Shown: positions 53,531 to 60,503 of the stretch, piece by piece
How the letters are laid out: each line of letters begins with the position of its first letter
Numbering within the stretch: position 1 is the first letter of the stretch
Source of the DNA: Planctomycetota bacterium
GTDB taxonomy: Bacteria; Planctomycetota; Planctomycetia; Pirellulales; Pirellulaceae
NCBI GenBank assembly: GCA_026692845.1
Contig: JAPLNM010000044.1
Coordinates: 1 to 64,000 of the forward strand
Reading direction: 5' to 3'
DNA length: 64,000 nt
The notes under the pieces: generated by a model
The model's database searches: none
What the model was told of the DNA's origin: nothing
The model's input: the letters and a program-made list of their open reading frames with translations, nothing else
Program-made: the position numbers and the translations under genes

Positions 53531-56500
53531 TTAAGAATGGGTGGATCGGTCTTGGGTCGGATCGGCGATGGTTTGGGGTTCTGCGAGTTGATTCCATGCC
53601 TGTTCCCATTGGGTCCAGGTTGTTTGGCTTGCAGCGAAAATCCAGCGGCGATCTGGGATGTCGGCTAGTCCGAGCGTTTTTGCGAGGCTGCTGGGTTGGA
53701 AGCTCGCGACATGGGGACCATCGAATTCCACGGTGCATGGATGGAGGAAGGATTCATCGGACCAGACGACCAGTCCGTGGTCTTGGACATCGTAGGGTTT
53801 CCCTTTGGAGAATTCCGATTCGACTTGGGCGCGGATCAGAAACACACCGCATTTGCGCATGAAACCGAGTATTGCCAAGTCGACGACTTTTTGGACCTTT
53901 TCGGGCGCTTGATCGAGCCCTCCTGTTTGGCGAGTCCAAGCGACAATCCAGCCGCTTTGCTCTTGGATTACCAGTTCGAAGGGATCCGGTTTATGCTCTT
54001 GAGAATTCGGTGAAATCGGTTTGATTCGGATCGTTAGGCTATTGGTTGCCGCGATCACCTCGGAGCACTCCAAGCGATACGCGTCGTTGGCTAGGGATTG
54101 ATTGACCATGGCGATCAATTCGCGGTCGACGCATCGGTGGACATGATCGGTTACGTGGTGGAGTTTTTTGTAGGCGCTGCGTCGTTTGGTAAACCGTTTG
54201 ACCGAAGCGGTTTGGTTTTCGAGTCTGCGCATGTTTCGAAAAAGCTTGGGCAAGGTGCCCGAGTGGAATCCGGGGCGGAGCAAACGCTCGATGGTTTCAC
54301 CGTGGCTACCTACTGGAATGGGCCCAAGGATCCCTCGACGATTTTGTCGAAACAATCTCCAGTTCTCTTTGAGCTCCCAAACGGCGAACCCGAAGAAACC
54401 GGGCAGGAAGACGATATTGAACCAGGTGATGGAAATCGCAAGGGGTTTGTTCATGTATTGGGTCAGAAACGCTTCGAGGTTGACCGCTAGGATCAGCAGG
54501 ACAGGCAGGAAGATCTTGTGGGCGACGGTCACGACAGGGAAGTGCTTGACGGGGTGGAGCGTCGGTTCGATGAGCAGATTGATATAGATTCGAATCAGGA
54601 AGGAGATCACGGACCAGAAGAATCCCAAGATGGCTTTGGCGATGAGCGACAGGAGACTTTCTTGGCTGTGGAATCGTAGCCATTCGTCGACCGCATAGAG
54701 AAATCTTTCGAATGCGAGCAACAAGCCTCGAAACAACTCGACGATCCAATCGATGGCGATGACAACCCAGCGCAGTCGGACCAGATTCCAGAAGCTTCCG
54801 ATGGCTTCAAAAAGAAGTTCTTGGACGTCTCGGCCCAAACGGGAATTCATCAGTGCGCTCAGGACGATCGCTTCGCAGGCCATGCGAAGGTTCGGGTGGG
54901 TCAGGACGCTCGGGGATCTTTGGATCAGCCATTCGGTGGCCAGGACCAAAGTCGCAGGCTTGATCCAGTAGCTCCAGGCGGTTTGCGTCCAAGGGTGCTC
55001 GAAGAACGAACGAATCGAGGCCCAGGGCAGGAGTTCTTGAGGCAGACGGATGCAGATCGCGTAGATCAGCTGACCGACCCACCGGATGGCTTTCCAAAGC
55101 CCCAAACGAAATCGGGGTAAGTGGATCAGCGCCATCAAAAAAAGTCCGACGACGATGACCAGGGGGATGATATTCAGTTGGTTCGAAACGATCTGATCGA
55201 CGGCTTGGTCTGCGGTTTTGGTGACTGTGGATGCTGGTTCGGTTTGCGATTCGGTGGCAAACGGAATCGGGTCGATCGATTCGGAGTGGGCTCGGGGATG
55301 GTCGCTGGTCCAGGTTTGGATTTTGTGCCAAATGTGTTGGATGCTTTCGATTAGGACCAGGGCACCGCCGAAGGGAATGATCAAAAATAGCGTGGCGAAA
55401 CGTCCTTTGGTGGTCCCGAAGAACATCGCGCTGATCATTTGGATCCAACGCAGGTAGAAATCGCCTTTGCGATAGACGCCATCGAGGACTTGGTCGAGGC
55501 GATCGTCGGCTTTGAGAAGTCGATCGCCGCTCCATGCTTCACGCAGACCGTGGAGATCGGGGAGTTTCAAATCGTTTTTGCTGACCGCATCGCGGAAATA
55601 GCCCATGGAAATGTATCCTCGCTCGGAGATGCAATCGAGTGCGTCTTCGACGAGCTTGTCCATAGCGATGCGTTCCGGGAACGAACTGGGGGTCATACCG
55701 ACCTCCAGCAGTGTGTTCCGCAGGGGTTCACGGATCCTTAGTCGCATCTGAGAGTCGGCTTGATGCGACGCTTGTTCGAGCAGCAGGGTCAATTGATCGC
55801 GTTCGACCCCGCTGAGCCGCACGTGCGTCAGCCTAGCTGTGGCGCTGGCAAGGTGCTTGGCCATCAAGACTTCTTGGAGATTGTAAAGTGGCCGACTCAA
55901 AGGTTTAGCGCCCAGGGAGGTCACCCAACGCAATAGATCTACGCGGTAGGAGATGCGTTCTTTGTCGAGACAGACTTTCTGCAGGTCGTACAGGAGGCGT
56001 TTTTCAGAGTTCCAGAAGCCTTGGATGGCGTTTCTGGCCAATGCCAAGAGGACTGCGTGCCAGTCGTTGTTATCCGAAGCGGGGAAGCCGATCGCTTCGC
56101 GCAAGCGTTTGACGAACAAACGCAAATCGGACTCGGCGGTCGACTCGGCCTTGGACCGTTTGCTTCTCGAGGGGGCCGAGCGAGCGGCGCGGAGCGAGGA
56201 ACTGATCGCGTGGACGGTATTGCCCCGATCGGTGGCACGGTCGCGTCTGCGCATGTAACGAAGGTATTTACGCTCCGAGGTGTCTTGTGCCAGACCGACG
56301 GACCATCGTTTCTGTGTGTTCTTTAGGACCACCTCGTCCTGCGACTCACGGCTTTGAGTATCGATGGATGCAGAACCCGAGATCCGCGATTGGTTTAGCA
56401 GTTCCTCGATGGGCAGATCCAACCGCATCTTGTCGGCGACACCATCGATACGTTGGATCGAGGGGAACCAGGTATCGAGGGTATCTGGATCAAAGTAACG

Positions 56501-57028
56501 GTATTCCCAAAAGAGGGCTACCCATTCGCAAAACGCTTCGACGCGCGAGTCGGGGTCGAGCAATCGCATTTCGGCGCGGAGCACGTGGTGGGCTTCGTCA
56601 AACTCCACCTGTCCGAGCGCATCGATTTGGGATTGCACGAAAGCGAATCGTTCGGGGGTTCGCAAAGCTAGCAGCGCGCGATCCAACTGCGCATGGAACA
56701 AACGTCGCCAGAGGAGCAGTTTAAGTTCATCTAGGGGCCAATGTTCGATTTGGTCCGGGTTGGGGAGTTTTATAAGCAGGACATCGCCGCAGATCGGCTG
56801 GATATTGCGGAGTCCAAGTTCATCGGGCAGGATACTGCCCAGAACCTGTTCGGCTGGTGCGACATGCGATTCTTCGTGAGGCAGCGCCAAGGCTAGACTT
56901 GGATGTTGGGTTCGCTTTCGGAGCAATCTGCGCATGATCCGGCCTTCGACCAAAAAAACGGTCGAATCAGCGGCCGACACCGCTTCGCGCAATTCCCCAA
57001 CACGATTAGCAACGGGGGCTTGAGACAC
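53531..57028 (-). CDS. large hypothetical membrane protein (1165 aa)
   Basis: Long ORF; soluble N-terminal half, multiple predicted TM segments in the middle (FATLFLIIPFGGALVLIESI, LNIIPLVIVVGLFLMALIHL, ISITWFNIVFLPGFFGFAVWEL), soluble C-terminus; no family recognised. Confidence 0.8.
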   Translation of the reverse strand: MSQAPVANRVGELREAVSAADSTVFLVEGRIMRRLLRKRTQHPSLALALPHEESHVAPAEQVLGSILPDELGLRNIQPICGDVLLIKLPNPDQIEHWPLDELKLLLWRRLFHAQLDRALLALRTPERFAFVQSQIDALGQVEFDEAHHVLRAEMRLLDPDSRVEAFCEWVALFWEYRYFDPDTLDTWFPSIQRIDGVADKMRLDLPIEELLNQSRISGSASIDTQSRESQDEVVLKNTQKRWSVGLAQDTSERKYLRYMRRRDRATDRGNTVHAISSSLRAARSAPSRSKRSKAESTAESDLRLFVKRLREAIGFPASDNNDWHAVLLALARNAIQGFWNSEKRLLYDLQKVCLDKERISYRVDLLRWVTSLGAKPLSRPLYNLQEVLMAKHLASATARLTHVRLSGVERDQLTLLLEQASHQADSQMRLRIREPLRNTLLEVGMTPSSFPERIAMDKLVEDALDCISERGYISMGYFRDAVSKNDLKLPDLHGLREAWSGDRLLKADDRLDQVLDGVYRKGDFYLRWIQMISAMFFGTTKGRFATLFLIIPFGGALVLIESIQHIWHKIQTWTSDHPRAHSESIDPIPFATESQTEPASTVTKTADQAVDQIVSNQLNIIPLVIVVGLFLMALIHLPRFRLGLWKAIRWVGQLIYAICIRLPQELLPWASIRSFFEHPWTQTAWSYWIKPATLVLATEWLIQRSPSVLTHPNLRMACEAIVLSALMNSRLGRDVQELLFEAIGSFWNLVRLRWVVIAIDWIVELFRGLLLAFERFLYAVDEWLRFHSQESLLSLIAKAILGFFWSVISFLIRIYINLLIEPTLHPVKHFPVVTVAHKIFLPVLLILAVNLEAFLTQYMNKPLAISITWFNIVFLPGFFGFAVWELKENWRLFRQNRRGILGPIPVGSHGETIERLLRPGFHSGTLPKLFRNMRRLENQTASVKRFTKRRSAYKKLHHVTDHVHRCVDRELIAMVNQSLANDAYRLECSEVIAATNSLTIRIKPISPNSQEHKPDPFELVIQEQSGWIVAWTRQTGGLDQAPEKVQKVVDLAILGFMRKCGVFLIRAQVESEFSKGKPYDVQDHGLVVWSDESFLHPCTVEFDGPHVASFQPSSLAKTLGLADIPDRRWIFAASQTTWTQWEQAWNQLAEPQTIADPTQDRSTHS

Positions 57029-58955: not shown

Positions 58956-60503
58956 ATGCATGGATTGATTCTTGTACAGCTTCAGAAATTCGCTCAGCAG
59001 ACGTTCGGCCCCGAGAAGTGGCGTAGGGCGTTGTCCCAATCCGGTTTAGATCAAACCTCATTTTCAGCCGGTTTGGTTTACGAAGACCGACAAGCCCTCG
59101 AGTTGATTGTTTTAGCTTCCCAGACATTGAGAGTCCCGGTCGACGAAGTCGTCGAGTTGTTTGGAAGGTTTTTGTCGACGGAATTGATCAGGCTCTATTC
59201 CCGCGTCATCAAGCCAGAGTGGCGGACGCTAGATATCATCGAAAACACCGAGACCTTCATCCATTCGGCGGTCCGTGTTGGCAATCCCGGTGCGGTACCT
59301 CCAGTCCTTGATGCGATTCGCCTGTCGGAAAACGAATTGCAGTTGCTCTATTCGTCCGACCGGAAGCTTTGCAAGTTGGCCATCGGGATCATCCATGGGT
59401 TGGCCGATCACTTTCAAGAGGTCATCGAGGTCCACAAAGACTCCTGCATGCTGCAAGGCGATCCATTCTGCACGTTTCGATTGATTAGAAATATCACCAG
59501 ACGCGATACCGAAAAATTGCACGTCCAAAATACGATTCAATTCGGTTTAGACTCCCCATTGACGGTCCAAGGAGTTCAATCCACTTGGGAGGGTGGAACG
59601 CTGAAGTCAAGAAGCGAGCGTTCCGAAAGTGAGCCGACTCAGTGGGGGAGCTATCTATCCCCCTCGATTTCCGGATCGGATTTCGCCAGCATCGGGCCTT
59701 ACAGAGTCCTAGCCCAGCACGGGGAAGGTGGAATGGGTTGTGTCTTCCGAGCAATCGACACCCGTACGGAGCAAACGGTAGCCATCAAGGTGTTGCATCC
59801 GAAAGTTTCCAGAGAGGCGATAGCGAAAAAGCGTTTCCTACGCGAGCTGCAGGCCTTACAGCAAATCCGAAGCCCGCATGTGGTTGAGGTCCGAGACGTC
59901 GGTGAGGTTGGTCAGTTGCCTTACTTAGTCATGGAGTTTTTACGCGGTACGAATCTCCAGGTGTACCGACAGCGTTTCCAGACTTTACCGATTCAGGAGA
60001 TCCTGCGCATCGCGATCGAGACCGCGGATGGATTAGCCGCTGTGCATCAATGCGGGTTGATCCATCGCGATATTAAGCCGGAGAATCTTTGGATCGAATC
60101 GACGACACTCAATGTCAAGATCATCGATTTTGGGTTGGCTCATGCGGTATCTGAAGAGATGCGACTGACACGGACCGGGACCTTCATCGGCACCCCTTCG
60201 TTCATGGCTCCCGAACAGGCCAGTGGAGGGACAATCGATCAGCGTGCTGACTTCTTCAGCCTCGGTTGCGTCCTTTACGATCTGTCCACTGGACGACGGC
60301 CGTTTGATCGCGAGAACATCCTAAGCACATTGTCTGCCTTGGCCAATCACACCCCCGAGAAACCTCGGGTCCTAGCGCCGGATTGCCCGGAGGGATTCTC
60401 TGAGCTCATCATGCGGATGCTTGAAAAAGATCCTGCCAAGCGACCTCAAAATTGCCAGGAAATCTCGAAGAGGCTAAAGGCGATTCTGGCAAGCCTTGCC
60501 TGA
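58956..60503 (+). CDS. H-NOX (heme NO/O2-binding) domain fused to Ser/Thr protein kinase
   Basis: N-terminus MHGLILVQLQKFAQQTFGPEKW; H103 (FIHSAVRVGNPGAVPP), Y132-x-S134-x-R136 (LYSSDRKLC). Kinase motifs GEGGMGCVFRA, VAIKVL, HRDIKPEN, IDFGLAH, FMAPEQA. Confidence 0.85.
   Translation: MHGLILVQLQKFAQQTFGPEKWRRALSQSGLDQTSFSAGLVYEDRQALELIVLASQTLRVPVDEVVELFGRFLSTELIRLYSRVIKPEWRTLDIIENTETFIHSAVRVGNPGAVPPVLDAIRLSENELQLLYSSDRKLCKLAIGIIHGLADHFQEVIEVHKDSCMLQGDPFCTFRLIRNITRRDTEKLHVQNTIQFGLDSPLTVQGVQSTWEGGTLKSRSERSESEPTQWGSYLSPSISGSDFASIGPYRVLAQHGEGGMGCVFRAIDTRTEQTVAIKVLHPKVSREAIAKKRFLRELQALQQIRSPHVVEVRDVGEVGQLPYLVMEFLRGTNLQVYRQRFQTLPIQEILRIAIETADGLAAVHQCGLIHRDIKPENLWIESTTLNVKIIDFGLAHAVSEEMRLTRTGTFIGTPSFMAPEQASGGTIDQRADFFSLGCVLYDLSTGRRPFDRENILSTLSALANHTPEKPRVLAPDCPEGFSELIMRMLEKDPAKRPQNCQEISKRLKAILASLA

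Follow-up and report, generated by a model that had tools for sequence, protein, structure and literature searches.

Bacterial H-NOX proteins are known to address histidine kinases, c-di-GMP enzymes and chemoreceptors (PMC8738867, PMC12329717), and they act mostly in trans. A distal tyrosine is requisite for O2 binding by these proteins (PMC8738867). In Shewanella oneidensis H-NOX, Cys139, Cys164 and Cys172 are zinc ligands together with a fourth residue, His161, which is His or Gln in relatives; in Vibrio cholerae, haem-free H-NOX was reported to be activated by oxidation of this zinc/cysteine site (PMC7108781). The Caulobacter H-NOX binds NO without effect on its partner kinase, which is instead acted upon through cysteine oxidation (PMC12329717). 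The locus described here belongs to a Pirellulaceae genome of the Planctomycetota and lies in a window of 64,000 nucleotides (the whole stretch of DNA that was analysed, contig JAPLNM010000044.1). It consists of a single 515-codon reading frame that runs from ATG to stop (window positions 58956-60503, + strand) and joins an H-NOX domain to a Ser/Thr kinase. We favour, with some confidence, the view that its 515-aa product is a soluble one-component kinase sensing NO, in which a cysteine site would act as a stabiliser and maybe as a second input.

The protein can be divided into three parts. The H-NOX (HNOB) domain covers residues 1-178 (58956-59489, + strand), including a C-terminal, cysteine-containing beta hairpin. 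It is followed by a poorly conserved linker of about 67 residues (59490-59690, +), by eye without transmembrane stretch, and by a Hanks-type (PknB-like) Ser/Thr kinase domain (59691-60491, +), which forms the end of the chain. Comparison with three close orthologues from Pirellula/Planctomycetota MAGs (L002, L003 and L005) gave Ka/Ks values of about 0.05 for the H-NOX part and about 0.06 for the kinase, so that purifying selection acts strongly on both domains and the ORF is a real, maintained gene. The linker evolved faster (Ka about 0.2), and its length was 54-98 residues in nearly all fusions. A chance or frameshift fusion was ruled out by the Ka/Ks values together with the occurrence of the gene in many independent genomes.

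The initial annotation had described the first 180 or so residues as an H-NOX domain followed by a full Hanks-type kinase, and had proposed a profile search and a comparison of AlphaFold models. The profile search bore out both domains, and the model the H-NOX part. Pfam placed HNOB (PF07700) at residues 2-160 (106.8 bits, E=1.4e-30, curated cut-off 25.5) and Pkinase (PF00069) at residues 249-501 (179.7 bits, E=1e-52, curated cut-off 31.7), scores that exclude chance matches. A V4R match overlapping the C-terminal part of the H-NOX domain scored slightly under its own cut-off. When the first 188 residues were searched against the PDB, the sole matches were H-NOX proteins, beta chains of soluble guanylate cyclase and a K. 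algicida H-NOX whose entry carries the name of an aldolase. Residues 1-185 were modelled with AlphaFold from six sequences; the model, of moderate confidence (pLDDT 70), resembled solved H-NOX structures. Its best 48 Foldseek matches were all H-NOX domains or guanylate cyclase beta chains, the top one being S. oneidensis H-NOX (4u9b, E=6.5e-10, TM 0.77), and 1u4h was also among the fold matches. The full-length model (pLDDT 47) was too poor for any H-NOX-kinase interface and was not used.

All Hanks motifs were present in the kinase domain (GEGGMG at 256, AIK with K278, HRDIKPEN at 370, DFG at 391, and APE), which by its sequence is of the RD type with a Thr-rich activation loop. Residues K278, H370-R-D372, N377, D391 and E420 were invariant (33 of the 34 fusions plus the divergent L133, see below, were counted). 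Among curated NCBIfam kinase models, PknB/PASTA model NF033483 scored best, with 268.3 bits, below its cut-off of 450 and over the kinase part only. Pfam detected no PASTA domain in the window protein, nor any HNOBA or class III cyclase domain.

The host genome contained 29 Pkinase matches and a single HNOB match. In its family, Pirellulaceae, HNOB was found in 80 of 241 genomes, and an intact, single-frame H-NOX/kinase fusion in 31 (window included), as called from long frames scored with domain profiles built for this analysis. A few more fusions of this family run into a frameshift or the end of a contig (G480, G561, G570 and G587); those of G561, G570 and G587 (L127, L125 and L126, respectively) carried frameshifts or a stop and are either pseudogenes or assembly errors. 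When the fused H-NOX alignment was compared with 397 genomes of the order, two sister families contributed 42 more genomes with frames of at least 470 residues, and the kinase was present at all 21 of these loci that were examined. A distant planctomycete (G043) harboured three fusions. Both domains were also recognised by Pfam in seven clade members drawn from different branches and, outside the family, in L133 (496-2499, - strand, genome G105). This last element combines HNOB, kinase and TPR repeats, displays Ser at position 103 and no YxSxR, and would represent a good kinase attached to a sensor that has degenerated.

Outside Planctomycetota, no fusion was found among the long frames checked in 284 Myxococcota genomes, where H-NOX stood at the frame end and no kinase matched. 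Likewise, the phylum of G624 yielded no H-NOX/Hanks kinase fusion, and an H-NOX/HATPase_c_2 fusion was found instead. Two such elements, L213 (4530-5480, + strand) and L217 (genomes G1208 and G1219, respectively), join an H-NOX domain of the same clade to an RsbW-like HATPase_c_2 domain (Pfam 1.4e-17 for L213) and retain both haem ligands and cysteine triad; they are possible NO- or redox-controlled anti-sigma-factor kinases. For the stand-alone clade members L209-L212, the search for partners gave no informative Pfam match.

The 35 fused domains in a 114-member H-NOX tree all lay to the same side of a branch whose SH-aLRT support was 100, among them L133, whose long end branch (3.15) makes its placement unsure. 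A wider tree (77 rows) gathered the fusions in a group with a support of 98, which also held unfused H-NOX proteins of another phylum-level group and the two H-NOX/HATPase_c_2 fusions. The distribution of the kinase fusion within this group requires two changes on the tree, and the fusion may have arisen there once or twice.

The haem pocket was well marked at the residue level. The window protein has His at 103, Pro at 115, Tyr at 132, Ser at 134 and Arg at 136; the proximal histidine and the Y132-x-S134-x-R136 motif were thus found where the initial annotation had placed them. The codon of the predicted proximal ligand His103 lies at 59262-59264 (+) and the predicted haem-binding motif at 59349-59363 (+). 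His2, Gly3, His103, Pro115, Tyr132, Ser134, Arg136, Gly144 and Gly148 were invariant in the 34 intact clade fusions; the haem residue set was kept in 41/41 fusions of a wider sample, and among all intact fusions inspected, the degenerate, TPR-bearing L133 alone deviated in its haem ligands. His103 was also present in all 79 sampled stand-alone H-NOX proteins. Residue 2 (codon 58959-58961) was His in 40 of the 41 fusions of the wider set, against Tyr or Lys in 74/79 stand-alone proteins, and, if the N-terminus is close to the haem, this histidine could affect the chemistry on the proximal side.

A second conserved site was missed by the first reading of this DNA, which had proposed a gas input; the H-NOX domain itself stands, and a possible redox input has to be set beside it. 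Cys139, Cys164 and Cys172 (three codons spanning 59370-59471, +) occurred in 34/34 fusions, against only 6 of the 79 unfused H-NOX proteins, and in 41/41 fusions of the wider sample. Since the fused profile aligned without gap over 181 residues with S. oneidensis H-NOX (4u9b), each of the three cysteines falls on one of its zinc ligands (PMC7108781). At the fourth position, 161, the window protein has Lys, adjoining His160; orthologues display Glu, Gln, His or Lys, and Glu predominates in the wider set. Three unfused relatives from a phylum other than Planctomycetota (L214, L215 and L216, genomes G1220, G1222 and G1223) have lost the proximal histidine and Pro115 and kept YxSxR and the cysteine triad. 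This pattern suggests a haem-independent role for their cysteines, so that such a site can matter without haem.

Because the triad is present in all clade fusions and oxidation sensing is known in Vibrio and Caulobacter, NO sensing alone has a serious alternative in a redox input or a dual NO/redox one. In its strict form, this alternative makes the fusion mainly a redox-sensing kinase, switched by oxidation of the zinc-type Cys139/164/172 site, with a structural or secondary role for the haem. The enrichment of the triad in fusions, its alignment with the S. oneidensis zinc ligands, its retention in the relatives devoid of His103 and the Caulobacter precedent (PMC12329717) all speak for it, the last two counting at the same time against the NO-sensor model. 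Yet strict conservation of His103, Pro115 and YxSxR in the intact clade fusions would be unexpected were the haem irrelevant, and position 161 does not carry the usual His or Gln; we therefore consider the strict form rather unlikely. The NO and redox readings are naturally reconciled by a dual sensor.

The H-NOX part could also be a docking or haem-availability module passing no gas signal to the kinase, as L133, which kept its kinase without haem ligands, might be taken to indicate. As L133 is a lone and very divergent exception and the haem set is complete in the clade fusions, we regard this as improbable.

As to the choice of gas, the position of the O2-stabilising distal tyrosine, which we take to be Tyr140 of the Thermoanaerobacter H-NOX, is occupied by Leu141. 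Leu was found there in 32 of the 34 fusions and Tyr in none. The parallel that the initial annotation drew with the Thermoanaerobacter protein thus breaks down in the distal pocket, and its proposal of an "NO/O2-responsive" kinase is supported only in part. As the distal Tyr is replaced, O2 sensing is unlikely and NO the likelier gas, a preference extrapolated from characterized families. An O2 (or CO) sensor kinase of the Thermoanaerobacter type appears very improbable, since membership in the same fold family, with 1u4h among the fold matches, is outweighed by the missing Tyr and by a profile match to the O2-binding chain (1.5e-11) far weaker than that to the NO-sensing S. oneidensis H-NOX (4.5e-31).

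Under the favoured model of an NO-sensing kinase, the H-NOX domain would bind haem through His103 and YxSxR, and NO would bind the ferrous haem, probably giving a five-coordinate state in which the Fe-His103 bond is lost. The H-NOX subdomains would then rotate, and this movement, relayed through the linker of about 67 residues, would switch the kinase in both its autophosphorylation and its phosphorylation of substrates. Rupture of the Fe-His103 bond followed by rotation and relay to the kinase is the most likely route by analogy with described H-NOX proteins. The zinc-type site would probably stabilise the domain, and may add an oxidant input converging on the same conformational change. Family membership is what points to haem and zinc binding, to the preference for NO over O2 and to kinase activity, and gas-dependent control of the kinase would follow from comparison with known systems. 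Dozens of planctomycete species carry the fusion and have retained its haem and catalytic residues, so that in these bacteria a gas or redox signal is probably converted straight into protein phosphorylation.

Another contig of the host genome (C34; L164, 691-2919, + strand) encodes a quinol-dependent nitric oxide reductase of 742 residues (E=3e-250 to solved structures). NO is therefore a relevant and plausible metabolite in this cell, which, given this enzyme, can detoxify or respire it. A search for NirK in the host genome gave one weak match below the family cut-off and none that was convincing, which counts against the NO model.

Upstream of the fusion and on the same strand lie genes for an aldo/keto reductase and an HD-domain protein; downstream, a FAD-dependent oxidoreductase gene is convergent to it. 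This order was kept in close relatives only, and no neighbour gene common to distant fusion loci was found, in line with a self-contained regulator. An operon partner was considered and rejected, as no neighbour recurs at distant loci and cross-group matches in the vicinity of the gene turned out to be antisense shadows of the fusion. Farther upstream in the window (53531-57028, - strand), a protein of 1165 residues with several hydrophobic stretches and no Pfam match was 68-89% conserved in syntenic relatives.

The architecture and its unusual output, as first claimed for this locus, are supported by Pfam, by the genome survey and by the literature. No paper describing an H-NOX/Ser-Thr kinase fusion was found among the full texts searched, which cover few subscription journals, and the main text of a survey of Planctomycetota Ser/Thr kinases (PMC11032199) makes no mention of HNOB, haem or NO; the architecture may already be catalogued somewhere. 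Both parts belong to known families, and it is their combination, its spread and the cysteine site that set the fusion apart. It is quite possible, and we propose it tentatively, that Planctomycetota H-NOX Ser/Thr kinases form a widespread, undescribed class of bacterial NO signalling that integrates haem-NO and cysteine/zinc redox inputs; they would belong to a broader H-NOX clade whose outputs are Ser/Thr kinases and RsbW-like proteins in place of histidine kinases or c-di-GMP. Planctomycetota possess many Ser/Thr kinases of unknown input, and the fusion would provide one whose input is predictable. Being covalent, it would be a small and soluble system that allows gas sensing and catalysis to be measured in a single polypeptide, and the invariant haem and Cys3 zinc-type sites make NO versus redox control of H-NOX testable by simple mutations.

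Among known systems, the beta chain of soluble guanylate cyclase likewise places an N-terminal H-NOX domain in control of a fused catalytic output. Yet this output is a class III cyclase located behind HNOBA and coiled-coil domains, none of which occurs in the fusion. The membrane-bound O2-sensing H-NOX fusion (PMC8738867) is also a one-component protein with an output domain, but it has the distal Tyr and no kinase. PknB/Stk1-type Hanks kinases share all catalytic motifs, the RD type and the Thr-rich activation loop; in contrast to them, the fusion is devoid of PASTA or transmembrane parts and displays an N-terminal H-NOX domain instead. L213 and L217 resemble it by H-NOX clade, cysteine triad and haem ligands and differ by their output, a GHKL-type ATPase and not a Ser/Thr kinase, as well as by their occurrence in another phylum-level group. 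Resemblance of the sensor part was also found with S. oneidensis SO2144 (4u9b/4u99/2kii) and Nostoc Alr2278, which have the same fold and length and no distal Tyr either; the S. oneidensis protein further displays identical His103/YxSxR numbering and the same three zinc-ligand cysteines. Both H-NOX proteins are stand-alone, and their targets in trans are histidine kinases or c-di-GMP enzymes (PMC8738867), in contrast to the fusion, which is distinguished from both by its covalent Ser/Thr kinase and by His instead of Tyr or Lys at residue 2, and from S. oneidensis H-NOX by a zinc-ligand position 161 that is neither His nor Gln.
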